DNA of 64,000 nt from Gonapodya prolifera JEL478 (Eukaryota > Monoblepharomycota > Monoblepharidomycetes > Monoblepharidales > Gonapodyaceae). The position numbers and the translations under genes were made by a program. The stretch is taken from the NCBI GenBank assembly GCA_001574975.1, contig KQ965817.1, positions 94,401 to 158,400 of the forward strand, written 5' to 3'. This document shows, piece by piece, positions 7,400-62,457 of this stretch. Position 1 is the stretch's first letter. Every line of letters starts with the position of its first letter. Under the pieces are notes generated by a model. That model made no database searches, was not told where the DNA came from, and saw nothing but the letters and a program-made list of their open reading frames with translations.

Positions 7400-8417
7400 T
7401 CACGTTGTGTCATTGTTGGTCGGCTCTTCTTGAGTTTTGGTCCCGCCCGTGGGAGCCTTCGTCTCTTCTTTGTCAGTCTTCACCACGTCAGCCGGGCCGA
7501 ATTTCGAGAACCATAACCGTACTGCCTGTTTGTTGCAAAGAGACGGACGTGGAGCATCAGCACACGACCCGCTCGAATCCCCCTCCCGCCCCGGTCCCCC
7601 CGGCACGTTCCTCTCACCTCTTCATGCTTCTCATACGCCATTTCTCCCCCCTCCGGCACCTGGGTCACGACGATCCGTTCCGTCGCTTCGCCGCTCGGCG
7701 TGAACTTTGGGAGATTGCTTTGCCGTTGGGCGTGGGCAAGACCGAATGTGAGGAGGAAGGATGAAGTGGGCGAGGTGTGCACGGAAACGATGTGGAAGAG
7801 CGTAATCTGGCCGTGTGACGGCGGGTGAGGGGTTGCGGTACTTGATTTTGCAACGAGATGGTGCTTCGGCACTCACTTCTTCAGGCCTGGTTCTTATCGA
7901 CGTTTCCTGCCCAGCAAAAATCAAACGACATGTCGTTCATCACCACCTCACCCCATGTGCTCGACCTGTCCCAATGCCCAAAGAACCGAACGCCCTCACC
8001 TCCCTCAGCTCCCTCGCCGCCGCCTGCTGCCACGTCTCGTCCACCTCCATGAACCCTCCAGGCACCGCAAGCTTGCCCGGCGTGTCCACGTTGGGCCCGC
8101 GGCGGATCAAGACGAGTCCCGTGGGTCGATCGTCCTCCTACAAATGGCACATGAAATCGAACGAAGCAATCGACAGTCAGCCAGCCGAGGATGGATCGCT
8201 TTGAATTGCCAGCGGTACTCAACGTCCCGCGACTCACATCCCCGACAATCACCGGAACGATCGCCAGTGCAACAGGCAAGGGGCTCTGGTCCGACTTGTT
8301 TGCGCATCGTTCGCACACGCGCGGGAATCGGGCCCGCGGGTCGGGCCATTTGGCGCCGCAGAAGCCACAGTGCGAGTTGCGGGCGGGTGCGCGGGCGGAT
8401 GTGGGTGGTTGGGACAT
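7400..8417 (-). CDS. Nudix hydrolase with N-terminal zinc ribbon
   Basis: Five exons (8417-8238, 8137-8000, 7906-7877, 7806-7618, 7525-7400) close in phase to 220 aa. Residues about 17-40 form a CxxC...CxxC ribbon (CGFCGAKW...VCERCA), as in NADH-pyrophosphatase-like Nudix proteins. The Nudix box is GGFMEVDETWQQAAARELRE joined across an intron to ETSI: it fits GX5EX7REUXEEXGU except that the late Gly is Ser. The catalytic REXXEE glutamates are present. The box is split by an intron, and the next exon is only 30 nt. The C-terminal tail is lysine- and glutamate-rich. It should hydrolyse a nucleoside-diphosphate-linked substrate; which one cannot be read from sequence. No targeting signal is obvious. 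Confidence 0.9.
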
Positions 8418-8577: not shown

Positions 8578-10620
8578 CTATGCAGACGCCGCAACCTGCA
8601 CATCCTCCTCCGCCGATTCGTCGCTCGCCAGCACATGCCACCTGTTGACATTCCTCTCCTCGACGCGCGCCCGGTACCTCTTGATATGCTCCTCATACAC
8701 GCCCCCGCAGCTGGTGAAACTCCTCGTCAACGGCTGCAAGGAGCTTGCGCGCGTCTCCACGTGAGACCATGTACGGCCTGTCCTCCGCAAGAACCCTGTC
8801 CACGTCCACGACCATAGAGACGACGGTCTGGTTGCCGTAGGTGGTTATGCTGATGCCAAGGTGTGTTTGAAGGGTGAGACTATTCCCTGGATATAGATTT
8901 TGTTGCCTTTGAGTATTGTTCACAAATTTCAAGATTCTGGAGCTGATACTTACAATCCATTGCTGAATTGGTATTTGCACCCTCTGAAACTATTGTTTTG
9001 GGCCAGGCTGGGAGGTAACCAAAGTGTGAGCAGAGCATCCATGGCTATTTCAGTGCTGATCAACATTGATGATCACACCATGCATTTTCTGTGTTGCAGT
9101 CTGCACCAACCATTTCCTCACACTGAATCAAATATTAATCTGTTTGGTAGGTGATTTAATGTTTGCCACAATGAAGTTTTACCTTACCCTTATGGCAACA
9201 AAATTGTTGACAGCTGACAGTGCCATCCACATATACAAATGCAGAGCAATACTTTTCTTGGTGGTGTGCATTTCCTTGAAGACAACCTGCAGTCTCTTTA
9301 GTGAAGAGGTATTTCCTGATCTTGGGAATGAAACAGTCCAGTTTGAAGTTTGGTTGGACAGGCTTCTATCATCTACTTTGCGCTGAGATAAGGACTACAA
9401 ATGGGTAGCTGGGTTGTGCATGCTAGGTAAAGCAATGAAATGATTACAAGAAAGATACATCCTCATGAGAAAGACCAAAGTGAAACTTTCCTTTTTCAAC
9501 CTGCTGCTTTGCATTCAGGAACCTCTCCACACCTCCCACCACAAAAGCCACCAAGACATCATTTGCAGCAGCGCCAAACACATTGTTGCAAGCCTTCACA
9601 GTTCTGAGGGGTACCGGCTAAGACCAAGCAACCTGCTTTGTGGTCAGCTGAGCAATATTTACAGCCTTTGTATCATCTTCCACTTTCTGGCCTTTGCCTG
9701 GTTCAAGGTTCCTGCTGTGGGCCATAAACATGTTCTGGGTGGGGCCGGAATGAGCTGCAGGAGACTTGTAATAAAGACACAAATGCCCTGGACAAATGTG
9801 AAAAGCTGCTGCATTGAGGACAGCAAGCTTGTAAAATTGTTGCTGGACTGCTGAGAGAGTTTCCTTGAAGTCATGGGCCAGCCTTTTAGAAATGTCAGGG
9901 TATCCATTTGAGAAGTACTTTTCAGGTACTCTTCCCACTTGTTCTCTGTCCCAGTCCTGTATACCACATTTTGAGGGGCCACAGGGGCAGTCTTAGTGTG
10001 GTCAGTTGATGAAACTAACTGGAGCACTGAATAATAGTTCCATACTTTGTTAGTAAACATGTCTTGTGACTCTCACAGGTTTGCAAGAGTCCATCTCCAT
10101 CATTCAACCTGTGGTGTAATTTGACCAGAATAGCACACTTAGATCCCTTTCAGTCACAATGTTGCAATTTTTAAAGTATCCAGAACAGAACCAAAGAGGC
10201 TGAAATTTATACTCACATAGTCAAGTCCTGTGAGCAGGTATGCTTTCCAAAGAGGCTTATCCCATGTAAGAGGACTCTAAAATACTTCTGCTACCATATC
10301 TTGAAGCTCTTTGTTTGTGCCAGGTGGGGCCTTCCAGGGAGATGTCAATGCTGATGTCATCATCCTAACAACCAGCCAGAATGCAACACTCATCAGATCA
10401 ATCTGTTCAGTATGTTCACTGATATTCTCCACCTCATATGAGCATTGCAAACTTTGGTCTTCCAAATAGGCCCTTCCAATCATTCAGGTCCACATAATGT
10501 GACAGTCTTGCGTCAAGACCTGCAAAGTAATCTTGCAATTGAATTGTAAGAGTGTCCAGCATAATGTTGGAGGCCAAAATGAGGAGTGTGGCCAGATTGC
10601 CATAAAGTCCTGGTGGTTAA
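8578..10620 (-). pseudogene. Wax ester synthase/diacylglycerol acyltransferase (WS/DGAT) remnant
   Basis: Successive pieces on the minus strand follow the WS/DGAT order. There is a hydrophobic N-terminal part (LYGNLATLLILASNI, about 10,600), then PLWKAYLLTGLDY followed by GTGAGT, then the acyltransferase active-site motif HHRLNDG (HHxxxDG, 10,096-10,116). After that come VAWS...PVPLRTVKACNNVFG and AANDVLVAFVVGGVERFL (about 9,540-9,640), VTSQPGPKQ (equivalent of SNVPGP, about 9,015), and the C-terminal HLGISITTYGNQTVVSMVVD (about 8,850). Frames are interrupted by stops (for example TAG after VAWS) and shifts, including one in a G run near 8,707. Everything above 8,836 is CpG-poor while the last 260 bases are CpG-normal. 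The live enzyme would make neutral lipids at the ER; this copy cannot. Confidence 0.8.
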
Positions 10621-13600
10621 AGGAATATTAGTGTTTGACTAAAAGGATTGAAAGGACACACAGTTACCAACATCTCCATATTCTGCTATGAAATACAGGA
10701 ATCAACCCCAGTCAGGTACTGTCCAGCAATGGGAGCAGTTGGGCTTGCCATGAGTTTGCTGAATGTGTGTGTGTGAATTGGTGTCACCACAATAAATTTA
10801 AATTCCTGAATAACTAAAATAATTTTTGTGCAAAGGACAAAGTGGGCTTTGGAAAACAGCAATGCTCTTGCCTTTCTGTGTGATGATGTATGTTATTTCC
10901 CTCTTGTTTATTACCCAAAGCAAATTTATCATGTGTCCTCTTATTTTGCAATTGTATTATGCTTTCTTCCATTACACAAAGAGCTCCATAGATTACTCTC
11001 CTGGTTTTGCAAAAAAAATGCTAAGTAATGCAGATCCTGCCATCCATTCCTCTGCACTTGCCTATAGCATGGAATGCACTGAAGACAAGTTTCTAGTGTT
11101 TCTTTTGTCTTGGTATTGGTTGCTGATTTAGTCCTCTATATTTTTTCAGTGATGCTTCAGTGCTTTATTTACATTGCCAAAATAACCAATGAATCACCTT
11201 ATATAAGTATAAATGAGAGGCTCTCACAGTTCAATGAGGAATTCCTTCAGTTTACTGATCAAATCAAAAGAAACAACATCAAAACACAACAGTCAAAACT
11301 CATTAATACGTAAGAACTGCCAGCTAGCTGGACAACTCCTTGTTTGGAAAGTGCTTGTCCTGATTTTGTCTTTGTGTGTCACCCAAGAGGAGTTGGTTTG
11401 CTCTTGCTGTGAAGTGCTTGGTCAGACTCTCACTTTATGCATCACCCAAAGAGATCCCATGACATCTCTGCTAGTTTTGCAAATAGGAACTTGATGGCCT
11501 TTAAACAGCAAACACCTAGCTCTCAGAGCCTGAAGCTGGATTCAAAATGTTTTTACATAGCATGGACCTTGTGGCAGGTGGATATTGTCAGGGATCAGTG
11601 TGTTCATCATTGCCATAATACTACTGCTTTTGCAATCAGCATGTTAGTGCCTTAAATGTGCTCTCAACATGACAGATTGAACTGCCATCTGTGCCAACAA
11701 AGCTTCATGAGGAACTCAAATTGTTATATTTCCTTCAAACCTCAAACCTTTCCCCTCTAATAGCACATGCTGTGATTTGTTCTTTGTGCATCACTCTGAA
11801 AGATTATATGATTGATTGCTCTGCTAGTTTTGCAATGTTCCTGAAGCTCTTGATAACAGCCTTTCAACAGCACAAAAGGTGATGTCACATTCATTCTTCA
11901 TCTTCAAACAAAAAATGTGTCACAATACCAGCCTTGAAGTGTCCAGAGTGCTCTGCCTGGGGTCTAATTGAGATGAATATTGTTCAAGGCCACAATGCTT
12001 GCTGAAATGTCCTTCTTTTTCCCAGCAGTTGTCACATTCCATCCAAACTAATGCCCACTGAAGGCAGTACCATAGTCTAGCGGAGATGATTTTTAGTCAG
12101 GAAAGTACTTCTACAGATTTTGGCTTTGTGCATTGCCTGGAAAGATTCTTAGATTTCTTACAAGGTTTTGCAGATGGTCTTCATTCTTGGTGACAGCTAT
12201 TTTCATAAATAGTAAACAGATGCCATGTTGGCCATGCACAAAATGTATTACCTCACAGTATGACCTAGAGGTTCCTGTCCAGATTCTGCTCTATTGGGTG
12301 TTAATTGTTGCTTTTATCCCACCAACTTTGGTCAATTGTGCATGACCAGCTTTTATGTTGCAGCATTTTCCTCTATTGAAGGTCCATAATAAACTCTGAC
12401 AGTGTGTCCTTCACAGCTAAACTAGTGTCATGTCAATTACAAGGGGTACCAAATTATCATTTACTATAAACCTATAAACAAGGAAGGTCAACACCATATT
12501 GCAAAAGTGTGTCCACATTTCAACTTTCTGTGTGATTGCAGAAAGATTGTATCGCATCTCTCCTTTGCAGCCAAGAACTTGTCATAAGCTTAAAACAGTA
12601 AAGACATTTGTTATTCCTTGGTAACTGGTACTCACAATAACATATCAGTGCTTGGCTGTCACTGCAAAGATACCTCTTGAATCCATCATCTTTTCCATCA
12701 GTTAAGTGAGAAATGCTCACAGCTTGCATGTCACAACCAACATCTTGACCATAACATTGCAACTGGAGGGATGACTCCTTGTTGTAAAAGTGTTTTTCCA
12801 GACTCTGATTTTGTGCATCACCCAAAGAGATCATTTGATCTTTCTCTTGGTTTTGTGAACTATCCTCAGTCTTGATGACAGCCGTAGATGACCAATATTC
12901 TTCTGTATCAGCACATATTGTACTCCATGTAGAATACTACATCATAGCACATGTCTGGACACACATTTCCCAAGTTGAATGTTCTCATGGATGTTGGTTG
13001 TTGCTTCTGTTCTAAGTACTTTTTGTGGTTTTGCAACCAGAATCATCCCAGGATTCAAACAGCCAATACAGGTCATGCCATCCATTCCCCTGCATCTGCA
13101 CATTCAATAATTTTCTCAAAGTATTTACTGGCTGGCATCCAGAGTGTAGTCTCTTTGGTTTAGATATTGCTTGAAAACTGCTTATTTTTGTCAGCAGTTT
13201 GTTTGTGCTTGGGTTGTATTCTCAACATGACTGTTGGACCTGTCTTATAAAGTAGCATACATCAATGAAAAATCCTCACCATGGTTTTGTATGTCACACC
13301 CAAGGCAATACCCTCCAAACATGTAAATTACCAAAGTTTCCCACTGGAGTTTTATCATCCACTTGCTCCACAACTCCTTGGTTTTGAAAGTGCTTGTTGA
13401 TATTCTGAGTTCAAACTTTTTTGTGCATCACCTGAAGAGATCCTCTCATCTCTCTCCTGGTTTAGCAAATGGGTTAAGTCTGGTCAACAGCCTTCAAACA
13501 GCAAACACAAGTCATGTCACACAATTCTCAGCAATTGAATGTAGCATTATTGCATAGCAAGGCCTGGTGTATAATGCTGCTAAGAGTCAATTCTATTGCT

Positions 13601-14395
13601 TGTCAGTTGTCACTTTGCTCATTTTAGTCAATGGTGTGATGGTGCTTGGTTTACATCACCATAATTGACCATTGATTCATTGAATTGCAATCTTTTCTGT
13701 GCAAGCTCCAAAATGAAATCTCACCTTTTGGACATCACATTCCAACTGATACCTTAAAAACACTACATTTAGTTTTATAAATATGAACATGGTGGTTCAA
13801 ACAGCATACACAGGTCATATCAACTATTATTATGAACCTGCAAATAGAAAAAATTGCATGCCAGTGTTCAGAGTCTCTTCTGTTCACCTCTTGTTGATGC
13901 TTCAAATTCTTAGTTCCAATTTTGTGCATCACCCCCAAGGAGATCCTACAATTTTTCACTTGGTTTTGCAACTGTAAACCTCACAGACTTTATACAACCA
14001 ACACAGGTGTCTGGTCATGCAACCCATTCCTCTGTACCTGCATCTGGATAAAAATACTATTCACATAGTATGGACCTGGTGGGAGGTGGATGCTGTCCAC
14101 AGACTATCAGCATTGGTTGTTGCTGTGGTACTGCTTCTTTTTGTCAACTGTGCATTGGCAGCTGTGTTGCCAACATGACTGTTGAATAATCATCCTCTCC
14201 CTCAGCCCTCCTGTCTCAAGCGTGACCTGTAATTCAATTTCAAACTCTCACAGTCTGGTATTTGTATGAGTCACCTCAATGATTCAATTGATATAACCAG
14301 AAGTACTGCTGTGGTGTGAATTGCTCTCTATCACGTACTGATGGCCACTTGCAGACATCAAAATCCAAACCACTTACTTGGCAATGTGCATCACA
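8836..14395. other. CpG-depleted, low-GC tract
   Basis: By eye only about a dozen CG dinucleotides occur in 5.5 kb, against roughly two hundred expected from the base composition, while TG and CA are abundant. Flanking DNA on both sides is GC-rich and CpG-rich. The tract holds most of the WS/DGAT remnant and a degenerate tandem array. The pattern is that expected from long-term cytosine methylation at CpG followed by deamination. Repeat-induced point mutation as known in Neurospora favours CpA and would deplete CA/TG, which is the opposite of what is seen. Confidence 0.9.
10830..14200. repeat. Degenerate tandem repeat array (unit about 340-500 bp)
   Basis: A block containing the core TTTGTGCATCACCCAAAGAG followed by CTCTCCTGGTTTTGCAA, then CTTGATGACAGCC, AAACAGC and CATGCCATCCATTCCTCTGC recurs near 10,970, 11,440, 11,790, 12,130, 12,815, 13,425 and 13,925, with weaker traces near 10,910, 11,370 and 13,050. 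Spacings of about 340, 470, 500, 610 and 685 suggest a unit with insertions and lost copies. Copies are strongly diverged, so the array is old. No long open frame survives. It lies wholly inside the CpG-depleted tract. Confidence 0.75.
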
Positions 14396-15532
14396 TGTGA
14401 CGTGATGGATTAGGGAATTGCCGATACAGGGAAGGACAGTCGTTTGTCAGAGGACAGTGAAGGCGAGACCAGTCCTTTTGATATCAAAATATCGACGGAA
14501 AGAGAAAAATTGTTGAAACGGAACAAAAGCTGCAATTATTGCACAATGCCTCTTACGCGATCGCGCAAGCGAGTACAGGTAACAGTCAGGTCAGGGGTAT
14601 TCCTAAATCGCGCCACCTTCACTGCGCACCCCACCCCGGACACACAGTGGGACGAACCCTCCCCTCCCCCTCCTCCGACATCCTTTAGACCTTCGAACCC
14701 ACCGCCCTCGGACCAACCGTCGGTTCGGCTGTCGGGGAGAGCATATCAGGCATTCAGGAATCGAGGGGAGTGGGAGTGGAGTACGGAAGTACGGAACATC
14801 GACCACGACCGCGGATCAAAAAACGACCCCCACGTGATCGCGGCGTTTTTCTTATCGGGGCGCAAAGGGGCAGCAGGAGCATTTACCCCACGTGCGCAGC
14901 CACACCAATCGCTCCTCGGGGTCTCTCGTGACTTGACCTGCTGACTCGCCTGAATCGCTGCTTGGAGCGGGAGCTGCAAGAAGGTGGGTTGCGAGCGGGA
15001 GATGGGAGATCGCTAAGACGAAGATAATTCAATTATTTCATGAATGGGGGATGAGCCCTCGGAGGTTCGTTGCCCGCCCTCTCGGACGCTGTGATTGGAT
15101 ATGCGGGTCCCTTACCGCCCTCGTGGTGCTGCACGTGCACGTGTAGGGCGGGAGGTTTCTACGGCGGGACTTTCGGCGGAGGGATTTTGATTTTGTTATT
15201 ACTGTCGCACTAGGAATAATTGGGAGTGCGGTTCGGGATTGGGGCGCTGCTTGGTTGGATACCATATTGGGCAATATTGCGGAGGCATCTTCGGTAGCCC
15301 GCACCGAGTCAGAACACTGGGTTTTGCGTGCTGCGGGACTCTGACTCCGGTCTGGTTAGCGAAAGAAAACACAGGCTAACCGGTAACCGCGGATTAGGCA
15401 GCAACGCGAAGTGCGGAGTGGATTCAACTGACGGCGCGCGTGACGCTCGGCGTAACCTTGCCACGGGACGCGAGTCCTTGACGGTACACACCGGACGAGA
15501 GAGAGCCAAAGAAGAGCGTGGGAATAGGAGAT
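14396..15532. other. Intergenic stretch before the Ras-like gene
   Basis: Base composition returns to CpG-rich. A 166-codon open frame at 14,444 and shorter ones show low-complexity proline/arginine content and no motif; I do not call them genes. The promoter of the gene starting at 15,533 should lie in the right part. Confidence 0.4.
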
Positions 15533-18500
15533 ATGGCGTTTGTGGATGTGGACAAGCTGGACTGTCCCGTGATTGGGCTGCTGAGGTGAGTGGTCGGGTG
15601 GGCGAGGGCTGCGGGAGTTTGACGGGTGGAAATGGCGTGGGACTGGAGAAGTGAAGAGAGGGAATGGACTGAGACGGATGAACGGAGTGAGGTCAGATGT
15701 GCAGATGCGTGAGCGGGTGGTGACGGTGTGTTACAACGGTGGAAGGTGGACGAAAACCGAGGAATGGAATACGCGGAAGGGGAGAAGGATACGAACTGGA
15801 GTCTAGGAGAAAGAAACGGTGGAAGCTGGACGCATGAAAGACAGCTATGTTGGTTGGATAAGTGACGTTCATCTACCATGCCTGACACTCGTCTCCTTAC
15901 ACTACTCTTCATTTTCCTCACCTCACCCTCGTCACTCCCTTTCCACTTTCTCTTCCCTCTTCCCTCCACCCTACACTCTTTCCCTCTCCCTCTCCCACTC
16001 CACGTACGTCACCGTCCCCGCCCCCCCCACCCCCCCAGCTCACACTTCCCCTCCCAACAAATCCTCCTCCTCTCCTTCCTCTCCACCTCCCAAATCGACG
16101 GTCAATTCACACTCCTCCAAACGGCCGAGTTCCGGTGCTTCACCCTGCACCTCGTCCAAGACAACCGCAAAAAGTCGTGCTGGACCGACGCCAAGCCCGT
16201 GGACCAGCTCGCGGCGAGTCACGCGGCGAGGGCGGCGTCGGTGTCGCTTCCGAGACCGTCGACGTCGTCTTCACAACGCCGTGCGAGAGCAACCGCATCG
16301 GGGGTGGGGGCGGGGGCGGCAGGGGGCGCGGGGGGCGCAGTGGCTGCCATCACAACTCGAACCCGCCGCCACTCCTGGTTCGGCTTCCTCCCCTCCGACC
16401 TCCCCTCCACCTCGACTTCCACATCCACCTCTTCCTCCTCCTCCACTTCCCCGACACCAACCCGCGCACGCAAGCGATGGTCGTTCAATGCACTCGACCC
16501 TCCGAGGCGGAGCATTGCGCGGATCTCCGACGTGCTGGGCGGCGGCGCGGCGAGCGGGGGGACGGGTAGAGCGAGGAGGTCGTCACGCACACGCACCGCA
16601 TCCTCGACCCTCGCCTCGCTCTTTTCCTCCTCTTCCTCCCCCACCTCGCCGCTCCCAAACACCCCAAACTACCACGCCTCCAACATCTTCATCATCGTGC
16701 ACGTGCACATACCCCCCTCCGACCTCTCACCCTCCACCTCAGCCTCCCCCTCCCACTGGCACCCGCCCAACGTACCCATCCTCCGCGCGTGCCACACATT
16801 CATTGTGGCGTATTCGACGGCGGACGGGGGTAGTGTGGATGGGTTGTTTAGGAACGCGTGGAGTGTGTTGGTGGCGAATTGCTCGAGGGATCAGGTGCGT
16901 TTCACAGTGGCTGGGGGCGAGGGCGAAGGTGGTGGTGGTGGTGAGTGGTGGTGCAGGCGAAGGTGGTGACGAAAGGGTCGAACGGAGACGATGAGTCTGC
17001 GGCGCCTTGTGGGACGCGGACGGGCCGGGGACGACAAGGATGCAAGGACGGCAATCCGGCCGTGTGGCGTGGTACCTTATGTCATCCATGTGGAAGACGG
17101 GATGTGCGCATGGGTGCGCGTTTCCGGATGCGTGGAGGTGGACGTGCCGGGACGGAAGAGTAGGCGTTGCGTCATGCGTCACCAGATGCATCGTTCCTCT
17201 TAAATGATCCATCGATCTCTTTCTCACCGTGCTCAACCCGCCCTTCCACCTCCCACCACCCCCCAGTTCCCCTCCTTCATGCGCGCCGCCCCGCCCCCAC
17301 CCGAACCCGCCGCCCTCGCCGGTCTCCGCCCACCACCACCCGAACCCATCCCGACCGTCCTCGTCGGGCTCGTCTCATCCTCCCCGCGCGCCGTCCCACC
17401 TTCCCACATCGCCGCTCTCCGCGAGACCCTCGGGTGCGAAGGCGGGGAAGTATGGGCGCGGGACGAGGATGTCGTTCGGGGTGTTTTTGAACGGGGGTTG
17501 TTTTTGGCGCGCAAGAGACGGGGGTGGGATGAGCCCGTGGCGGTCAAGTGGGATGTGGAGAGAGAGGTTGAGAGGGAGAGGGAGGCGGAGAGGAGGAGGG
17601 AGGGTGAGCGGGCGGCGGCTGCCGTAGCGGCCGGCGGATCGCCCGTACCGGATCCTCCTACAGACCGCGTAGACCCGCCTGCGGACGTCTTTCCCGAGCA
17701 CTTCGCCGACTCACACCACACCGTGTCGGTGGTCGACACGGCCATGCTGCCCACGCACCCGGACGCGACCCGGCCCCCGCTCAGGGCACCCGTCGTGCCC
17801 GTGCCGGCAGTCAAGGCGCTCGAGGAGGTCATACAGGAACGAGCGAGGGCGCTCCAGGCGTCGAGTGAGCCCGTGGCGGAGGGGCCGGGGATGCCGCCGA
17901 GGAGGGGCAGTGGTGAGTGCGTCATGGGGGAGGTCTTGCGTCGTACCGTCGTGTGCTGACCGAACTCGATACCTGTGTTCATTCCAGACCCCAACATGCG
18001 ACACGCACGCGTCGCCGCTGCCGCCGCCGAGCAGTCGCGCCGGTCCCACGCACGCTCGGCGACGGGGCCCGTGGCCGTTCCGTCGCGAGAGGAGTTGGAG
18101 GGGTTGGTTGGGAAGAAGACGACGGGTGGTGTGGGTGAGGATGAAGGTGGGTTGAAGAGGAGGGGTGTTTGGTGATGAGTGCGGTTTGACAAGGGTTGCG
18201 GGGTATAGGGATTGTGAAGACGACCGAGCAACAAGAGGGCGATCAGACCGCTCGGCACGAATCGAGCCCCGTCTTTGCATCCACCCCCGAGGCTCTCTCA
18301 TCCACCGCCACATCCACACCAGCCACTCCCCCCCACTCGGCCAGCGCCACCTCCTCCGACCCACCCCACGCACCGCACCGGCCTCTCCGCGAGCGCCCAG
18401 TGCGACAACGACCCGCATCCATGGTCGTCTGGGCTCCTCCCGACGAACTTGTGCAAGTCGCGGACAAAGACCTTCCGAGGAGGGAGCCGCCGCCACGGAG

Positions 18501-20928
18501 CGCAAGTCCTGCGAAAGGAGTGGCGAAGAGGAGTAATAGTCCCGTTGGAGGAGGCAAGGTGACCGGGAGTGGGAATCCGTTGGGGCCGAGGGTGGGGGTG
18601 GTGAGGAAAGAGGAGGATGGGAAGGACGGGAAGGACGGGAAGGAGGTTTCAGCACCTCCAAGAGCTACGGAGCGGAAAGGTGGAAGGGAGAGGAAGCGAC
18701 GAGGGTCGACCCCCAATATGAGGTCCAGCCCGGCGCCCGTGGATCAAAGCAAGAGCGGGAATGAGCCTCCAACGGCGGTTGGGCGGCGGGCCTCCCCTGC
18801 TGCCGAGGATGTCTTACCGAGCGATTCTGCACCCCTGCAAGTGACGCAACGGCCTATCCCACCACCGCGCCCGAATTTGGGACCGCCCACGACACCGTTT
18901 TCGAGCTTGCAAGATCTGGACGAATTGCATCCTGTCGCTCCTCCACGGTGGTCGTCCCCGCGAAGGCCAGCTGGGGTGGAGGAGCAAGCTCCAGTTCGCC
19001 AAGGAGGAGGAAAGGTCGACTGGACGCCTGTGAGGAGGATGCAGTCGGCAGGGGAGGAAATCCATGATATGTACGACGGGATCTTGGATGGGTATGGGTA
19101 TGGGGGTGAGGAGGAAGCTGGCGACGGGGCTGCCGAGGAGAGTCGTGGTACCGGATATCGGAGAGGTGTTGAGGAGGAAGAAGACCGGCTGGCGAAGTCG
19201 TGGCCCTCGGCGACTGCACCTACCTCTACTTCGACGCCTCCTGCTCAGCCATGGTCGCCCGGGCGTGCCGTCGGGAGAAACAGGAGGAGAAGGTCTGTGG
19301 TGTCGATGGACGAATACGGCGGCGGGGATAGCGAGGCGAGCTCGGGGGACGCGGACACGGAGGGCGATGAAAACCCCGACTTTGGGTCCTTTATTGGGTC
19401 GATGGCGGTATGGAGGACGGATGAAGAACTGTCTGCGGATGACACCAGTATGCATACGCGCCCAGTCCAGCACCAACAACCGCCGGCACCATCTCCTGCA
19501 ACGGACCCACGAGCGCAACTAGAGAGCTATTTGGGCTCTACGGATTCGACTCTGGGCAGGCCGCCTAAGCGAACTGGGGGTAGGGACTACAAGCACGTAT
19601 CAGAGCTCTTCGCGCCTTCCCCGCCCGCGAATTCTACTCACTTAGAGGATACGGAAGCGAGCTACTCTGTAAACTACTACCAGGCCTTGGGATACAGGAT
19701 CGGTGGCATTGGCGAACTTCCCAGGCCTGCCCCCTTGATCAGGAGAGATTCGTCGGGCGTCTTGTCGGACAGGACGCTGTCAGAGTACCCTGCGAGTCCT
19801 ATCAACTGGGACGGGATCGCCGAAGCCGAATCTACACTGGAGCGGGAGCGGGCTCAACGAGAGGCGGGGGAATCTGTCGGCAATTTTGTGCGCAGTCCTA
19901 CGATGGACACAGTCAACAGCGACCTAATGCCGCATCTCTTGTTTGCGGGTAGAGCGTTTAGGAGCATGGAGGGAGAACAGGGTCACGAGCGGCTTTGGGA
20001 GCAGGCACAAGGGGATGCTCCGCTAGGAATGCAGTATCAATACGAAGGGCCGGCAGATAAGCCACCTGCGAGGCCGCCAAGGAAGAGGCCTGTTAGCACG
20101 CCAAGTGCCCGGGGGCAAGGGGGGGAGCACGTGCAGGATGGAGGGGTGTCTGACGGGCGCGTTGGAGGAGGACACAACAACTCGGCCAGAGATCGGCACT
20201 CGCACAACGGTGACGCAGCGCACTCCTCCAGCACATCAATGTCTTCATTGGATCAGCGCCCTCGTGCTCAAGGGAGAAAGGAACCCGAGGTGATCAGCAC
20301 GTATCTCGACATAAGTCTGCCCAAGTCCGTTTCAGACTTGTCCATTTCCTCTCTTGACGGAGGCTCAGAGGGGTCGAGCGGGAGCAGATCATTTCGGAGG
20401 AAAGTGCCCGATCAGGTCGGAAAAGCGCCGAGTGCACCGCAGGTGAAACTTGCAGGGGATGCGTATGTCGGAGGAGAGGGAGCTGTTCCACAACAGCCAC
20501 CCTCGGGACCATTGGGATTGCCGTTTGAGCCGATATCATGGAAGATTCCTGGATACCCGCCCCGAACTCACAAACTGAGTCCTTCGGATGATTCTGGTGT
20601 TCACTTGCCAAACCATATCCGAGAACAGCATGCTGCGATGCTTCAGCAGGGTGGCACGAACTTCTGCCTGGAAACCGTACAATTGCCATACCATACCGCT
20701 CAGTATGGAATGACCCAAGGGACCACCGGATTCCTCTACCCAAATACCCATCTGGTCCCCTTTGACCCTATCTCGCGTGGGTCTGTAAGCACCATCTCTC
20801 GTGGCCGCCGCAACGCGATTGAGGAGGAGCGGGACCGATACATCTTCGACTACGAGGAATCTTCTGATCAGCACCGCAAGTCGAACAACAAGCTCGCGGC
20901 GATTATACCGGGGTGGTTGCGACGCTGA
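15533..20928 (+). CDS. Large protein with divergent Ras-like core and long disordered tail
   Basis: Five exons (15533-15585, 16039-16894, 17267-17912, 17988-18146, 18209-20928) close to 1,477 aa. The second exon begins after a long C tract ending in CAG, a typical acceptor. The N-terminal third follows the later strands of a small GTPase: IDGQFTLLQTAEF, ACHTFIVAYSTADGGSVDGLF, then PTVLVGLVSSSPRAVPPSHI and ALRETLGCE...EDVVRGVFERGLFLARKRR. No GxxxxGKS/T loop and no NKxD are visible, and a Ser/Arg/Pro-rich insertion of about 200 residues splits the core. It may therefore be a pseudo-GTPase. The rest (about 900 residues) is disordered, rich in Pro, Ser, Glu and Arg, and ends in a conserved-looking YIFDYEESS...IIPGWLRR. 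The Ras relation is inference; no other family was recognised. Confidence 0.6.
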
Positions 20929-26500: not shown

Positions 26501-28985
26501 CTCACTGGGCAACGGTAAACGAAGTTCTTCCTTTACTGGCGCTATCGATTGCGGCCTGCACGACTCTTTCCGATGCGGTGTCAAGCGCTGACGTTGCTTC
26601 GTCTTCAAAGTTTGAGAAAGGTCAGACACACGAGAGCCTTTCTTGCAGGGATTTCCAAGGAACACCCACCAAACAGCAAAATTTTGGGCTCTCCAATGAT
26701 GGCCCTTGCGATCGCAATCCTCTGCTTTTGTCCACCTGACAACATGGCACCACGTTCGCCGACTTTGGTGTCGAGTCCCTCGGGAAGCGTGAGCACGAAG
26801 TCGGCATTTGAGATCTTGATGGCCCTGTGGATTTTCTTGTCCAGTTCCGATGACGAGAAGGCCGAGGGGTCGGCGAGACCCATGAGGATGTTGGAGCGGA
26901 TAGAACCTTCGAAGAGAGCGGGCTCTTGACCAACCATGCCGATTTGTTGGCGAAGCCAGCGAACGCTTTGAGTGGGGCGGGTGCGGTGTATTCGATCAGG
27001 TGAGGTGGTGGTGAAGATATGAGAGCCGCCACTTACTTGAAGGAGTTCAGCTGGTGCCCATCAATGGTGACCGACCCAGCCCGAGGGTCGTAGAAGCGCA
27101 TCTACACCAAGGCAAGTACGCGCGTGTCAAACTCGACGAACGTCGGACACACAAGCAGATCGGCACGCGACTCACCAACAACTTGACGATCGTCGACTTC
27201 CCACTCCCACTCGCGCCGACGAGGGCCACTTTCGTACCGCGCTTGACAGAGAGGTTGAACCCATCGATGATTTTCTGGCCCGGGCGCGACGCGTACTCGA
27301 AGTCGATGTCGGTGAAGGAGACGTCGCCCTCGAGGCCGGATTCGAGGACGAGTCCGTCGTCTTTCCAGCTGTCGATGGGGCTTTCGCGGTCGATGGTGTC
27401 CCAAATCTCTGGAAGGGGGGGTGGTGGGATTGATTGAGAAATGGAGTAGGAGCTGGTGATAGCAACTCAACGTGAACCTACTTGCAGCCGCACCCTGCGA
27501 AATCGCGATCTGACTCAAGTCGCTGCCCATGGTAGCGATACCAAACATGCCGATCTGACGTTGAAAGAAGGTAATTCGGGATTTCAATAAGTTTTGCCCA
27601 GTTGAGCGCGGTAAGAATGAAGCTCACCTGGAGCGCCAAAAACACAGTCAAAGCTGTTCCGCCCGTCATGGCCCCAATATTGATCTGTGTCGCGGCGAAC
27701 CAGAAACCGAGACCTGGTGCGATTGGAAGAAATGCGAGTGGTCAGCTCAGCTCAGCTCCACCACATCGCTCAACTCATCAGCCCACCTTGGAACCCGTAA
27801 ATGGTAAAGAACAGCAATCCAACGCCCACCCCAGCCGTGGGGCCAACTTTGCTGCCGTGCAGCGTGGCTTTATCCAGAATGGCGCCGTAGCGGCGCACTT
27901 CCTTTTCGAAACCGCCGAAGGAATGGACTGTGCGGACAGCCGTGAGGGATTGCTGGAGTGTATGTGCATGTCATCAGTTGCCAAGGACACGAGGGCTAAA
28001 CTCTCGAGGAGGAGGAGAGGACCCACCTGCGCGACGCTGCCGGCCTTTGCGAGCCAGGCCTGCTGCCTCTCGACGGTCTTTCTGAGGAACACGCCCATGA
28101 GTCCCACAATCACAAGACCGAACGGCACGAGTCCCGAAATAACGAGGGCCATTTTCCACCCGCGGATGTAGGCCAGGACGACGCCCGCGAAGAACTGGGC
28201 GACGGACATGACGACGTTCCCAACGCGCTCGCCGAACCCGGACTTGAGAAGTGCCGTGTCGGCCTGCAGGCGGGATGTGAGGTCGCCCGTCATGTTTTCC
28301 TCGAACCAGCCAATGTCCTGGCGCAGAATGGCGCCAAAGTACTTCTCGCGGACGGTCTTGAGCTGCCGCTCGGCGGTCACGGTCATGCACAGGTTTTGCA
28401 AGTACCCGGCGACAAAGGCTGCGCAGCCGAGGATGGTGAACAAGAGTACGTTATGGTAGGCGGAGTCGCTGTTGAGTTGGGAGAGGGTGGAAACAAATAG
28501 TTTTAGTAAGTCTTGTCTTAGAAGGCAGAGAAAGAGGAGAAAACTCTAAATACACTCACCGGGCGGCAGCTGTTGCGGCGTCGACTTGGGCCTGTAGGTC
28601 GGGATTTGCTGCGAGAGTCGCTGCATCGTAGGTTGGTTGCGAGGAGTTGATGCCGTCGGCAAGGTTGCCGAGGAACAGGGTAGTGACTGAGGTGCAAGGA
28701 GGGGCAAGCCGATGAGGATCGATGCACTCGCGGAACCTTCCACAGAAAATAAAGTCAAACCGGTCACTCACTCGGGAAAATGACGCCACGAGCAGCGCTT
28801 CCGATGACTCCGATCGTGAGTAAGACCCAGTCGAAGGTGGTTGCGAACCGAAACAACTCCCAGAGCGAGACTTTGCGTTCGGACGCCACTGGTGCTTTGT
28901 CAGCAGCAGGTTGGCCGACTGGAATGGCAGATGCGTCGTTGTTGGGGAGAAGGATCTTTGACGCGGTTAGGTCTGATTCTTTCAT
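23522..28985 (-). CDS. ABCB-type full ABC transporter (P-glycoprotein-like)
   Basis: ATP-driven exporter with the order TMD1-NBD1-TMD2-NBD2 over about 22 exons and about 1,333 aa, full length for the family. NBD1 has Walker [10 protein letters not shown] (exon 27408-27176), signature LSGGQKQR and [12 protein letters not shown] split by an intron, then the H-loop AHRLSTI. NBD2 has GPSGSGKSS (exon 24427-24368), [20 protein letters not shown] and AHRLASI. The linker between the halves is long and charged (26,290-26,000), as in MDR proteins. Membrane-span exons include [20 protein letters not shown] and [19 protein letters not shown]. Start ATG 28,983-28,985; stop 23,522-23,524. One oddity: the junction of exon 25824-25727 with the 24-nt exon ending near 25,630 is one base out of phase. 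Substrate unknown; expected in plasma or vacuolar membrane. Confidence 0.95.
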
Positions 28986-30021: not shown

Positions 30022-32507
30022 ATGGCTCGCAGCGCCATTCTGTGCTTCTTGGTCGCGTTGTGCTTGTCCCTCCTCGCTCACACTGGGGATGCCAGTTATT
30101 CACTAAACCCCTCGAGCACCAACATCACCTTCACTCCGGGCAGAAAATCACTGACTGCTCCATTGACTGTCTACATCAGTGAGTCGCCCCTTTCTGCCCA
30201 ATGAATCCCCTGTGGCCGCTTGGCTAACTTTCACGGTCCCCTCCCACGCCACTCGCTCTGCACTCTGCAGTATGGTACGGGGTCTGGCCCGACGCTGACA
30301 AGGCCATCGTGACCGACTTTGTCAAGGGGCTCAACACCAGCGCTTTCTGGAAACTCGAAACAATGTGAGTATCTGGGGACGAATGTCATACAAAGTGAAA
30401 CGTTCCGTGCATATCATCCTGACCCGGGACTCTGTCTTCCCTCTCCCCCCCCCAAACGTGCAAACGTGCCGCACAAGGTACTACACCGCCAACGACACAA
30501 ATCCAGCCGACCGGAAATACATTTCTTCCAGCGTCACTCTGGGACCGACTGTTCATGACAACTACTCGATGGGGAAATCCGTCGATGCCCGGCAACATTA
30601 CGACATCGGGAGAATCGGTACGTATGGATCACTGTTGAACTCCTTGTTTCCGAAGAGACGGGTCTGAAAAATTACTCAACGACGTATTTCTATTTCCATT
30701 TCTAGTATACAACCATATATCGCAGGGACTCCTCCCCGCCAACCTGGACGGAGGTGTCTACATGGTTCTCTTGGACGAGCACGTGCATGAGGGTGACTAC
30801 TGCGGTGGTGCTTACTGCGGATGTAAGTGGAACACATGATCGGTCGTGAGACGCACGGTGTGTCACAATAGCACCGGGCTGAATCTCGCTCTTCGCACAA
30901 ACAGTCCACACGTCGATACAGTCGGATTTCCTGGAGGCATCGCAGAACAATCGCACGGTCGTAGGTGTCCCTCCCGACTTTCCAGGTTCGTTCGCATGTT
31001 TTGACGACATCTTTAAAACGCTGCGTTTGACTCACTCGCTAACTACATAGACTACGCGTACGGGTGGGTACAGAACCCCAAAGCGTGCGGCCGCATCAAG
31101 GGAATGATTGGCTGCGGGTGGCACAACGCTCTCGTATCTCCAAATGGCAACCCGGGCGTCGACTCCATGTTGAGCGTCATCGCGCACGAGATTGCAGAGA
31201 GTGCGGTGAACCCGGTGAGTTTCAGTGGATGCGGTACTGCGCTGAGCGTTTATGTTGGGAGCGGACTCTGATAATGTTCTGAAACGGAACGCCGCCCTTC
31301 GCTCATGCTTCGCTCTTCCACAATACGTGTGCAACTAGGACGACGCCCGAGGTTGGAATACAACTGATGATAACGAGAATGGTGAGTACACGAAACGAGG
31401 GCGGACTTCTTGACGCGTGCTGATTCAAATATTACTTGGGTCCATCCTTGCCCAAACAGCCGACCAATGCGTCTGTGAGTATTCGAACAGGGGGATGTGC
31501 ACGCAGAAAGTATCACTGCGCCAGAAGTGATCTCACACCATTCTTTCCCAAGTCGTCTACGGCGCTTACACGAAGGAAGATCCGTCTGGATTTTGGTACA
31601 ACGCTCAATGGGGCGGCCGAAAGTACTTGATGCAGCAAATGTGGAACCCAACCAAGCAGCTCTGCGGCCCAGCTTTGAGCCCTGAAATCAGCGATTGCTC
31701 AAAACTGCAGTCGCTTATACCGGATTATTACCTCGGCGATGATTGCTGCAATTCTGGGTTTGTGCCACCGATTCGCCTATTCAAACGTCACAGCCGTAGA
31801 TACCAAACTCTCCGTCGTCACTTTGAAGCTTCGCCGATTGTGCCAATGAAGAGATTCGGAAGCTCGAGCTCAACGCCCTCAATCTAACGGGCGATCTACC
31901 AACATACCTCACCAAGATCGCCACCTACTTCCCCAACATCGAAGTTCTTTCACTCAGCTACAATTTTTTCACGGGCGCACTGAATGATGAAATCTGCAAG
32001 ATGAAGAAGCTCAAACTTATTTCCGTTGCTGGAATGTCCACTTTTACCGGAACGATTCCAACCTGCATCGGTGACTTGAAGAGCCTCTACGTTCTTTCAT
32101 TCCACGGCAACAGGGGCATTTCTGGACCAATTCCCACATCGCTGACGACTCTACCGCAGTTGGAGTTTCTTTCCCTCGGAGGCTGCAATCTCAATGGGAC
32201 AATACCCGACTTCTCAAAGGTCCCGAATCTTGCGTATTTTGTAGCGTCCGACAATCCGAACTTGAAGGGATCACTGTGAGTTTCAATGTTTACCAAATTA
32301 CCATGGAATATCTGGATCTAACAGGCCCCGCCCCCTCCACCTCCACCCTCTTCCAGCTGCTCCGGCTTTCCGGCTATCGACGCGCAAACGAGTGCTACCC
32401 CAGGCGGATACGACGGGCCAATACGCGCGTGCGACCTCAGCGGAACGAACATTTGCATCCCGAATGGACATCAAGGTCCAACATGCTTCGTTGACAAGAC
32501 GTGCTGA
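30022..32507 (+). CDS. Secreted EXORDIUM/PHI-1 domain fused to plant-type leucine-rich repeats
   Basis: Eleven exons (30022-30178, 30271-30364, 30478-30617, 30706-30822, 30905-30985, 31051-31214, 31339-31381, 31460-31474, 31553-31757, 31829-32275, 32357-32507) close exactly to 537 aa. Residues 1-25 are a signal peptide. Residues about 50-335 are an EXORDIUM/Phi-1 domain: WYGVWPDADKAIVTDFV, GVYMVLLDEHVHEG.YCG, CGWHNAL, the motif SVIAHEIAESAVNP and QMWNPTKQLCG. An LRR N-cap (DCSKLQSL...DDCCNSG) follows, then four to five repeats of the GxIPxxLxxLxxLxxLxLxxN kind (GTIPTCIGDLKSLYVLSFHGN, GPIPTSLTTLPQLEFLSLGG), residues about 340-490. A Cys-rich tail ends in CFVDKTC. Exon 8 is only 15 nt. It should be secreted to the cell wall or outside; EXORDIUM proteins are best known from land plants. 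Function here is unknown. Confidence 0.9.
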
Positions 32508-39475: not shown

Positions 39476-40718
39476 ATGTACTCCCCCATGGGAACTCAAT
39501 ACCACCCACAGGACCACCACCACCAACAACAACAGCAGGCGCTCTACGCCACGCCCACCTCTCCCCCGTACCCTGCCTCGATCTCACCGGCGGACTCGTC
39601 CATGTGCTCCCAACAACCCCACCACCACGCACCGCACACCACCACCCAAAACCACGCTTCCCACCCAAACTCCCACCCCCACACCACCGCGGCACCCGGT
39701 TCTGAAGACGACGAAGCCGACCCCGAAGCCGACCCCGAAGCCGACCCCGACCCGACCCAAGACGAGGACTTTGACGACGACGACCCGGCCGACCCAGACG
39801 CCGACCCTTCCCTGTCCGACGACGGCGTGTCCGAGGCCGACTCCGATTTCACGGCTCCCCCACGCGGGCGGGGGTCGGGTGGTGCGGGGGGTGGTGGGCA
39901 CGGGGGGGAGGGAAGGGAGGGAAAGGGAGCAGGAGGAGGGCAAGGAGGAACAGGGGGAAGAGGAGGCAAGAAAATGAACGGGAGGCGCAAGATCACGATC
40001 AGGTTCATTGAGGATCGGAATAAACGGCATATTACGTTTAGTAAGCGCAAGGCCGGGTTGATGAAGAAGGTGGGTTTTGCGTGTGATGGAGGTGGTGGTG
40101 TGTGTGAGGGCGAGCGAGTGGGCTCGCGGAGGAAGTGGGACTGTGTGTAGGGTATGTGGGATTCGCTCGGTTTCTGATTGTTGACGTTTCTTTGCTCTTC
40201 CACCACGCCTTGACTCGACTCGACTCGGCGGCTTCCCCCTTGTTCACCTCTACATTCGACTTCTTCACTTGACTTTCCTCCCTCACCACGTGTCTCGATT
40301 CCGTTCTTCACCGCGCCTCGACTCGACTCGACTCGACGTCCATCTCCACCTTCGTCACCCTCCTCTCACGCGGCACTCAACTCGCCCTTTTCCTCTCTCT
40401 CACCGCCAACCACCTCTCCCTCCATCTCATCTTGCTCCTGCCCATGCATCGTGCATCGTCACCACCAACCTCCCCCACACACAGGCCTACGAACTATCCA
40501 CCCTCACCGGAACACAAGTCCTCCTCCTCGTCGCGTCGGAAACCGGGCACGTGTACACATTCGCCACGCATAAACTGCAAGCGCTCATTTCTCAACCTGA
40601 GGGCAAAAACCTCATCCAAACCTGTCTCAACGCACCCGACGAGGAGGGAGCGGAGGGACGGGGTGGTGGGGAAGGGAGTGGGGGCAGGAGGGAGGAGGCG
40701 GGTGGAGGAGGGGCGGGG

Positions 40719-40804
<86 letters not shown>

Positions 40805-42212
40805 GGAGGGGAAGGGGGCGGGGGAGGCCGCCCAAACATGCGGGGGTGGAGCGGAACGGGCTCGCGTCGGCGCAGGGACAAGGGTCTTCGAGCGCGAGTG
40901 GCCACGGGAGTGGGAGTGGGGCGGGCTCTCCGACGGGGGGCAAATCGACTCCCGCCTCCAAACCCACCACAACCGTCTCCGCGCCCCAAATGCACACGCA
41001 AATCCACCTCAAATCCGAACCCCGCGACACAACCACACCCTCTGGCACGCGCAGGTCAGGTCGTAAACCCGTCCCCGTACGCGCGGGACCGTTGACGGAT
41101 GACGCGTCGAGCGACGGGGAGCGGGACGGTGAGGAGGAGGACAGTTATGTGGATGGTGGGGAGGGTGGGGAGAGCAGGGACGAAGAGGAAGAGGAACTTG
41201 TTCCCGCGCCGCCGCCACCCCCGCAGCAGCAGCAGCAGCAGCAGAGGAGGTTGAAAAGGAAGCATGCGGCGGATGAGAGTGAAGGACAGGGAGGAGGAGC
41301 ACAAGGACAGGGGCAGGGCAGCAGGTCGGTCAGTCAGAGGACGTCGGCGCAGCATGTGTCGGCCTCGGCTGGTGGGTCGCGGTCTCCGCCAGACGGGGAG
41401 TACGGACACGGACAGCATGCGCAAGCTCACACTGCATTACCGACCCCGCTCGGCACTCCCTCCGTTGAAAACCACGCGCACCTCCTTCCTCCGCCCGCCG
41501 ACCCGCCCCGTTCCGCCCCCGCACCAGCCCCCGCAACAGCAACCGCCTACTACGACCCCACAACAGGCCAGACCCACATGGCGCCCACCGCTGCAGCCGG
41601 GTACGCCTACCTCCCGCCCACGTCCACCCCCAGCGGGTACCAGCTGTCCTATTCATACCCCGGCGTCATGGCGGCTCCTTACTACGTCACGAACAACGGG
41701 CAAGCCTACGCGGTGTACAGCGGGGGTGTTGGTGGGATGGGTGTAGGCGGGATGGGTGTTGGAGGGATGAACGTGCAGGGCGGAATGGGCGTCATGGGAG
41801 GTATTATGCAAGGCGTGCAGGGGATGGCGAGTGTGGGCGGGCAGGCGGTGTATGTTGTGGGTGATGGGTCGGGGATGTAGTGAGTTTTCTTTTGTTGGGG
41901 GATGTGTTCGTTTGTGTGGTTTCTGACGTGATCTACCTGCCCTCACCGAACAATAGCAAACCCCAGTCCCCCGCCCTCACGACATCCGCACTCCCCCACT
42001 CGGTCGGACAAGTGCAGTACGGCTACATCGCGGCCGCGAGTCCCAACATCATGGCGCAGGAGCTCGTTGGGATGCAAGCTGCGGGCGCGCAGGGCGTGCA
42101 GGGTGTGATGGTCGCACAGGACCATCAGGGAGCAGTTGGGAATGGGGACGGTCAGGAGGTGGTGCATCAGCAGCATGGGAGCGGCGAGGTCAACGTGCAG
42201 GGGACGGCGTGA
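39476..42212 (+). CDS. SRF-type MADS-box transcription factor
   Basis: DNA-binding regulator, expected in the nucleus. Exon 1 (39476-40069) encodes a His/Gln-rich start, an acidic stretch of repeated EADPEADPEADP, a Gly-rich segment and the MADS box GRRKITIRFIEDRNKRHITF...SKRKAGLMKK. Exon 2 begins at 40,485 after a 415-nt intron and completes the box (AYELSTLTGTQVLLLVASET) with the SAM-like extension GHVYTFATHKLQALISQPEG. This matches type I SRF/MCM1-like proteins almost residue for residue. A G tract (40,715-40,803) follows, and the frame after it differs from the frame before. Downstream, a Gln/Pro/Gly-rich tail runs to 41,879, and exon 3 (41957-42212) ends it. About 750 aa if the tract is read through. 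The intron holds two near-copies of a (TCGAC)n element. Confidence 0.9.
40715..40803 (+). repeat. Near-pure G tract (polyglycine coding, frame-changing)
   Basis: Eighty-nine positions of G interrupted only by A at 40,721 and 40,751; the longest pure run is 52 G. It lies in exon 2 of the MADS gene, within a longer G/A-rich region. The reading frame entering it (codons starting at positions divisible by 3) is not the frame of the coherent C-terminal part, so the assembled length is off by one or two bases from an in-frame value. Confidence 0.95.
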
Positions 42213-46360: not shown

Positions 46361-46529
46361 TGGATGGAACACCTTACAATGTCCGCAGCATCCTTCCACA
46401 CCACCATGATTACCGCTCGCTCGCGTCTCCTCTCCTGCAAGAGACATCATTTGGCTGAAGGGTTCAAGCTGAGCCGGTCTCTGTTCCGCGCTCGATGCCG
46501 GGCGCACTATGGCGTCCTCGGAGATGCTG

Positions 46530-46780
46530 CGCACTTGTCTGCGGGAGCGCTAGCGAGCAACGGGCGATAAGGACACTTCATCTTCTACAACCATCAAGAG
46601 GGTCCAGCTTCACTACTGGCGCGTAACTTATTACAATGTACTTAGACCTTTTGGCGCTGCTGCCGGTGGTAGGTTCTCTAACATCCTACTACTTACAATG
46701 ATCCACCGCCATAGAGGGCAGCGTAATATGGCACCGGTCAGAGAATCCCCCTGTGTGTCCGCTTGTCCGCCTGTCCGCTC
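46530..46780 (+). repeat. Dispersed repeat, copy 2 (inverted match to 1,372-1,622)
   Basis: This is the second copy of the 250-bp block described at 1,372. It lies directly downstream of the ketopantoate reductase gene and may have replaced its last exon. No target-site duplication was evident by eye. Confidence 0.8.
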
Positions 46781-60362: not shown

Positions 60363-62457
60363 TTATCGACACTGCCACTGGTATCCCTCCGCCAACGACC
60401 CAGCGGACGCAGACCTCGCCGCACTCTTCGCCGCCACCGCCTCCTTCTCATCCCGGTACCGCTTCTTATCCCTCGCCGACAACTCCTCGTACACCGTCTT
60501 CTCCTCGGGCGCCATCGTGTACCACACATCGCGGATCATCTTGGAGCGCGCCGGTAGGCTGAGGCCGGGGTAATTGGACATCTGCTCCTGCTGGAAGAAC
60601 AGGTACGGCGAGCGAGGGTGTTTTGGTGCCGTGGGGTCCCGGGTCTTGCTCTTGCGGGTGCTTTTGCTCCGGGACGGACCGCCGCCACCTGAGGTGCTGG
60701 AGGCGTCGAGGTCGTCGCCTACAGCGGAGTGAGACTCCGCAGAGGAGGATTGCGAGTGGCGACGGCGGTGGGAGCGGGAAGGCGGCGAAGGGTTCAGCGT
60801 GATGTAGGGGATGTTGGGTGCTTGGGATTGGGCGAAGGGGTCTGGGTAGGTCAAGTTGTAGTCCATGCTGGCGTAAGGCGAGGGAGCACCGAGTTGGGCG
60901 AGCGAGTCGCTGTGCGAGCGGCGCACACTGCGTTGGGCAAGGATGGAACCCACGTTGTACTGCCCGTCGAAGGTGTTGTTGTATGCTGGCATCGAGTTCG
61001 AAGGCTGGCTGTAGAAGCCGTGCTGACCGGGAAATGTCCGCAGCTGGGGTGCGAACTGGGAGTGCTGCATCCCCATGCCCATGTTGGGAGCGCCAGCGCC
61101 ACCGTTCAACATCGCCATTCCCGATGGGTCCATTGTACCCAAGATCCCACTCGACGAGTCCGACCCCGCACCTCCACCAACATCCGTCATGAGCATTCTA
61201 GCACGCTCCGCATACGCACTTCTTTCATTATCGCTCATCCCGCGCCATCGCTTCAGCAGGTGCTTTTTGACCTCGGCCGGTGTTGTAATGGCGTAAGAGG
61301 ACTCAACGACCGCGCGCTGTTCCCCGAAGAAGAGTACATATGCGGCGGCGTAAAGGTCGCGTACCACGGGCATCATCTGGGTGAGCGCAGCGGGGTCACG
61401 ACGGAGTGCCACAGCTTGGTTCGACGTTTGGGCCTGAGGGAGATGGGAGCATGTGGGACGGGTGAGCGTCAAAGGGAAAGAGTGTTTTTGCTTAGCGCGT
61501 CACACTTACCGGGGTAGGCACCATACTAAGCAAAGCGGATGTGTTGATGTGATCAAACGAAGCGCCCGCGCCCGCACGATTGCCCGATATGTCGTGGTAC
61601 GATAGGGTTGATGTCACGGAGGTGGTAGGTGCGGGGGTGTGCATGCCTTGGAACGGCGCGGTGTGGAAGAAGAATGATGGTGGTGTGGCGTTGTTGGTGT
61701 GACACGGGGTCATCATGACCTCGCTGAGATGCGGGGCGCCAGTGCTAGGGAGTCCAGGACTCGGCGTAATAGCTCGCAGCTCATCGTCTACTTGGGGAAC
61801 CGATGAACAGTTTTCGGTCAGGTCAGTACAGTGGCGGTGCTTGTCAACACTTCGCAATTTTCCCGACATACCTCGGGAATCCGATGTGCTTTGGCGTGAA
61901 TGAGGGCGAGTTTGGCGTTGTGATGTAGCGAATATTGGTACTTCAAGAGATTCCATCCCGGTCGGACCGCCAACGCTGGCACGTGACAGTGACCGTTGAA
62001 TGCTTTGGCCAACAGCGTCCATGAGGTCCGGGCTTGCTGAGCGACTTCCGTAGGCTGTTGCAGCTGCAGCTACGAGTGCAGCGTTGTCCAGTCCGTCAGT
62101 TCCGGGGGGTGTCACCATGTTGCTAAGAAGGTATTCGAGCGGATTAGAGTCCGCCACGTGGAACTGATGGCTTGAGTCGAAGAGAGACGCGTTGAGCTGT
62201 GACGATTGGCTGTAGACGGTCGATGCCGGGCTTGGGGGGATGGGAGTTCCGGGGATTGGCGCGGCGATGCCTTCGAGAGCGAGGATGGCAGTCTGCGCGT
62301 CGTCGAGGTCTGGTGGGCTGACGACGAGATTGAACTTTGGGTGGGTAGCGTCCTCGGAGTTGCGAGAGAAATCCAGCGTAGCAGCGATGTCGATTGAGTT
62401 GAAGAAGTGGGAGTGCTCGTCGAAGTCTCGGAGGAGGAGTGCGGTCATTTCGGGCAA
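60363..62457 (-). CDS. HMG-box protein
   Basis: Three exons (62457-61872, 61787-61510, 61433-60363) close to 644 aa; the first intron is 84 nt and in frame, so it could also be retained. The N-terminal half is disordered. A degenerate HMG-like segment (AAYVLFFGEQRAVVESSYAI; VKKHLLKRWRGMSDNERSAY) lies around residue 310. A clear HMG box is near the C-terminus: KHPRSPYLFFQQEQMSNYPG, then LPARSKMIRDVWYTMAPEEK and YEELSARDKKRYRDEKEA, preceded by a basic SKSTRKSKTRD patch that could be a nuclear signal. It should bind DNA as a chromatin or transcription factor. The start may instead be the Met three codons later. Confidence 0.85.

Follow-up and report, generated by a model that had tools for sequence, protein, structure and literature searches.

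Extent and edges of the CpG-depleted tract

Why a few kilobases of a CpG-rich contig of Gonapodya prolifera JEL478 should have lost nearly every CpG, and what limited the loss, is the question raised by positions 8836 to 14395 of the 64-kb stretch of contig KQ965817.1 that was analysed (the window). The first-pass annotation had described about a dozen CG dinucleotides in 5.5 kb, with abundant TG and CA, inside CpG-rich DNA, and the counts bore this description out. Dinucleotide counting gave 12 CpG in this interval, with an observed/expected ratio (O/E) of 0.052 and a GC content of 0.406, against 705 CpG in the left flank (O/E 1.09, GC 0.54) and 3758 in the right flank (O/E 0.98, GC 0.555). 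In 500-bp windows from 9001 to 14500, TpG O/E was 1.28-1.79 and CpA O/E 1.37-1.79. All 51 sliding 500-bp windows inside the tract had a CpG O/E of at most 0.153, and the minimum among the 573 sliding windows outside was 0.57. The eight longest CpG-free gaps of the whole window (191-1338 bp) all lay in the tract; the longest elsewhere was 155 bp. GC content was ruled out as the cause: the 16 outside windows with a GC of 0.46 or less kept a CpG O/E of 0.72-1.20, and the CpG loss therefore does not track GC. The CpG depletion of the tract is thus confirmed as real.

Change-point analysis placed the left edge at 8837 (2-lnL interval 8837-8860) and the right edge at 14401 (14325-14401). The tract so delimited, 8837-14400, is about 5.6 kb long, carries no strand of its own and contains 11 CpG, the CpG at the edge (8836) being excluded. 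Sharp edges had been claimed on both sides, and this held for one of them. At the left edge a step fitted better than a 200-bp ramp by 3.2 lnL and better than an 800-bp ramp by 10.4 lnL. At the right edge every ramp from 1 to 800 bp was within 1.7 lnL of the best fit; the data there hardly distinguish a step from a ramp as long as 800 bp, and this edge is not demonstrably sharp. A search of 14400-17300 in three plus-strand frames gave no protein family, so no gene start was recognised at the right edge.

Kind of base change

The pattern of the tract had been attributed to loss of CpG to TpG and CpA, unlike classical RIP, and the dinucleotide indices agreed. CpA/TpG O/E was 1.58 inside and 1.08 outside the tract, and TpA O/E 0.57 and 0.54. 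The (CpA+TpG)/(ApC+GpT) index was 1.63 in the tract and 1.09 in each flank; TpA/ApT was 0.62 in the tract and 0.56 and 0.57 in the flanks. Classical CpA RIP, which needs a depletion of CpA/TpG and an enrichment of TpA, was rejected, since CpA/TpG was in excess and TpA was hardly raised for the composition. What methylation and deamination of CpG would leave, a fall in CpG with a rise in TpG and CpA on both strands, was found, TG (539) and CA (522) being equally common. Their order along the tract was slightly clustered (503 runs, 532.7 +/- 16.2 expected), and their lag correlations resembled those of a flank stretch.

Pure CpG decay was simulated on 32 stretches of flank DNA. The simulated sequences matched the tract in CpG O/E (0.018-0.068) and in the CpA/TpG index (1.58-1.71). 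Their GC content (0.449-0.53) and TA O/E (0.31-0.47) did not: the tract lies below all 32 in GC and above all 32 in TA O/E. CpG decay alone therefore does not make the tract: either the sequence was richer in AT at the start, or there was additional change towards AT.

The depth of the loss was examined in a second simulation from flank DNA, a simple one with one run per setting and an assumed starting sequence. Seven of 14 settings never reached an O/E of 0.052 (final O/E 0.087-0.249), namely a CpG factor of 30 without bias and, under both AT-bias settings, factors of 10, 15 and 20. A factor of 30 with bias and factors of 50 or more did reach it. Factors of 10-20 stalled at an O/E of 0.11-0.25, so that in this simulation the depth of the tract would require CpG mutation at least 30-50 times as fast as ordinary transitions, and ordinary slow decay may not be enough. 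Human CpG is about five-fold below expectation according to the available part of a review; a depletion of this size was the outcome of factors 10-15 in the same simulation, and the tract is stripped deeper. In species with measured methylomes, the rate figure could separate passive decay from an active CpG mutator.

A broken acyltransferase gene in the tract

The left third of the tract is a broken gene of the WS/DGAT acyltransferase type on the minus strand, as judged from matches that are weak but collinear. Neither this gene nor the repeats described below had been noted in the first-pass annotation. The piece at 10220-10327 matched positions 90-125 of the NCBIfam acyl_WS_DGAT profile (TIGR02946; E 1.1e-6, 27.8 bits) and gave a Pfam WS_DGAT_cat match (PF03007; E 1.3e-4, 22.3 bits) just under the curated cut-off of 23.6 bits. 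A second piece at 9489-9653, which includes NDVLVA, matched positions 232-286 of the NCBIfam profile (E 4.3e-5, 22.6 bits). The two profile matches are collinear and in different frames. Neither score comes anywhere near the whole-protein cut-off of 310, which fragments would not be expected to reach. Between them, translation of 10096-10116 gave HHRLNDG, an instance of the HHxxxDG catalytic motif.

A custom HMM built from 76 bacterial relatives was scanned against 1806 pieces of the window. Ten pieces had an E of 5 or less; five of these lay in the tract in profile order (E 1.5e-5, 0.076, 0.54, 0.59 and 4.4) and the remaining five outside it (E 1.3-4.6). Among those in the tract were 9447-9617 (E 1.5e-5), 10018-10149 around HHRLNDG (HMM 128-145, E 0.54) and, in another frame, a weak match at 9182-9394 (HMM 307-355, E 0.59). 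A tblastn search against plasmids gave ten weak matches (E 0.4-7), seven of them in genes annotated as members of this acyltransferase family.

The reading frame is not open through the conserved domains, as it would be in a working gene. TAG codons at 10277-10279 and 9618-9620 each lie within a profile-matched segment; by our reading the frame also shifts near 9390 and meets a further TAG near 8990. Both in-segment stops are TAG and not TGA, the product of CpG decay from CGA.

The probable last exon of this gene, with its TGA, lies at 8693-8878 on the minus strand, and the left edge of the tract thus probably falls inside it. The assignment of the exon to the family is weak: only one of the 1806 pieces ranked above it in a scan with a C-terminal HMM, but its E was 3.1, it was outscored by 25 of 5000 shuffles, and it had no Pfam match. 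It contains 15 CpG in 8693-8836 and none in 8837-8878.

Beyond it a NUDIX gene begins, also on the minus strand (8000-8417), with a PF00293 match at about 8125-8000 (E 5.6e-7, 30.1 bits, cut-off 21.1). The start codon at 8417 is our reading, and the reading frame was checked over 19 codons from this start. The left edge of the tract is about 420 bp upstream of the gene start.

Old repeats and probable loss of CpG in place

The part of the tract from 10960 to 14186 (plus strand) carries old degenerate repeats whose copies are 58-76% alike; there were 22 pairwise matches, and no copy is CpG-rich. An ungapped lag scan gave no clear peak for a single repeat period. Six-frame translation of the tract matched no transposon family or element protein domain, and comparison of the two 200-bp edge zones showed no terminal repeats; 20 of the 27 direct-repeat families were examined.

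Of 64 double-transition dinucleotide differences between repeat copies, 29 were CA in one copy and TG in the other, with 1-9 in each of the seven other classes; 19.0 were expected from dinucleotide frequencies (tail 0.006). Under stricter alignment scoring the count was 7 of 8, with 2.4 expected (tail 0.001). Both tail probabilities are too small, since the repeat matches overlap. A C/T difference with an A/G difference directly after it occurred 30 times, whereas 12.6 were expected by independence; the other three orders of adjacent transition differences occurred 16, 9 and 9 times (expected 12.6, 16.9 and 9.4). In four nearly non-overlapping matches, which share few bases, the excess was small, with 5 cases of the C/T-then-A/G order where 2.3 were expected. 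Two CpG-rich repeat pairs from the flanks showed 0 and 1 CA/TG differences. A TG in one copy facing a CA in another would most simply derive from CG. The over-representation of this difference is good evidence, though it comes largely from overlapping matches, and in all probability the repeats arose first and then lost their CpGs in place.

Origin of the tract

We lean, though not strongly, towards a native silent domain whose CpGs were methylated and then decayed where they stood, with its left limit close to the NUDIX 5' region. Silencing and CpG methylation would most likely have started from the repeats, CpG would have changed to TpG and CpA on both strands, and the acyltransferase gene inside the domain would have died. 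Such a left limit would explain why the last exon of the dead gene kept its CpGs. The CpG-specific decay in place is well supported; from it and from the layout of the locus we infer the methylation, the nucleation at the repeats and the boundary at the NUDIX gene. Against the proposal stand the GC and TA values off the pure-decay range, the small TG/CA excess in the nearly non-overlapping repeat matches, the two TAG stops, the weakly assigned last exon and a right edge with no recognised gene start. In the consulted part of a review, gene-body methylation is described as largely lost in fungi, which also counts against it; in truffle, methylation is reported to cover much the same extent as the transposon and to fall off close to the starts and ends of genes, which counts in favour. 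If the proposal is true, a host gene was lost inside a silent domain of which one edge can be placed to tens of bases, and simple counting of bases is enough to recognise such an old domain, methylation data not being needed.

The same decay could have been triggered by duplication, through a MIP-like process or RIP acting on CpG. There would once have been two copies of 8837-14400, homology-sensing machinery would have struck the whole block, and the edges would be the ends of homology. Such an end would account for a left edge that falls within an exon and is defined to tens of bases, the depth of the CpG loss calls for a strong CpG mutator, and a MIP-like process is the cause proposed for the CpG signatures of basidiomycete transposons (PMC4352252). 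However, no second copy of the block was found within the 64-kb window, where only internal repeats matched. CpG is not depleted in the window's two other repeat pairs (O/E 0.93-1.08), although their copies, with 74-77% identity, may have diverged too far for such machinery to act on them. A 2025 survey (PMC12543289), in its accessible text, found RIP-like signatures enriched in ascomycetes alone, with CpA favoured, and does not support RIP of a CpG type. We regard duplication-triggered change as possible but rather unlikely; within the 64-kb window it is not separable from spreading from the repeats. Doubtful, and to be entertained only tentatively, is an active CpG-selective mutator in place of passive methylation decay. 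It would have needed no duplication, would have removed the CpGs in and around a single-copy host gene at a rate 30-50 times that of ordinary transitions or higher, and its halt upstream of a working neighbour gene would have come within tens of bases, in effect a boundary-limited CpG form of RIP. Two further origins would make the tract unrelated to its surroundings. A CpG-poor foreign insertion, named by the first-pass annotation as a reading that would overturn its own, would account for the GC and CpG content that differ from the flanks. It is not favoured, because the probable last exon spans the left edge and the TG/CA differences between repeat copies point to lost CpGs; moreover, the two 200-bp edge zones share no word of 9 or more bases, direct or inverted, and an O/E of 0.05 is well under the human depletion cited above. 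We consider an insertion very improbable. An assembly chimera that joined unrelated DNA at one or both edges would fit the abrupt left edge, and the assembly is not flawless, with one N (5367) and a G-rich run in the window. Neither of these is near the tract, though, and the probable last exon is continuous over the left edge, so that a chimera seems just as remote.

Comparison with known systems

CpG-type decay is already known in fungi, and the comparisons that follow rest on those parts of the reports that were available. A bias from CpG to TpG is described in Heterobasidion parviporum. In Ganoderma sinense (PMC4457147), CpG methylation and CpG-preferring RIP with CpA as the second target are reported in transposons, together with at least ten low-GC regions in which RIP-like change and methylation are both abundant. 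CpG-specific transitions are common to that system and the tract. There, however, transposons with measured methylation are concerned, whereas the tract holds a gene relic and unnamed repeats known from sequence and has no CpA loss beyond composition. The basidiomycete transposons (PMC4352252), with MIP-like methylation and deamination, share the decay of CpG to TpG without a CpA mark, but are transposon copies. In Rhizoctonia solani AG8 (PMC4014442), CpG-biased hypermutation likewise affects genes in addition to repeats; it is genome-wide and between nuclei there, in contrast to one bounded 5.6-kb tract of a 64-kb window. Neurospora-type CpA RIP (PMC4165359, index formulae) has in common with the tract the C to T change killing a gene and the presence of repeats, but lowers CpA/TpG and raises TpA, the opposite of the CpA/TpG excess found here. 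A literature search for CpG-depleted gene relics or boundaries gave nothing closer than these systems, and is the sole basis for any statement on rarity.

Other features of the window

No RNA family at gathering score, no tRNA (ARAGORN, bacterial setting) and no DNA relative among plasmids was found in the 64-kb window. The G-rich run lies at 40710-40824 (about 115 bases, 87% G) in very GC-rich DNA and is possibly a sequencing or assembly artefact. An inverted pair of diverged copies was observed at 301-938 and 30269-30987, with 73-77% identity in pieces; these gave Phi_1 matches with an E of 1.2e-4 (below the cut-off) and 1.4e-8 (above it), and neither is CpG-depleted (O/E 1.08 each). A second inverted pair, at 1377-1754 and 46398-46775, is CpG-rich and 77% identical over 385 columns, with no Pfam family at either copy. 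The plus-strand open reading frame at 18190-20925 (912 codons) had no Pfam match. On the minus strand, an exon at 60366-61499 contains two HMG-box stretches (PF00505, E 2.1e-16), and 27781-28545 encodes part of the membrane domain of an ABC transporter (PF00664, E 2e-33), with ABCB4 and P-glycoprotein as its closest solved relatives.
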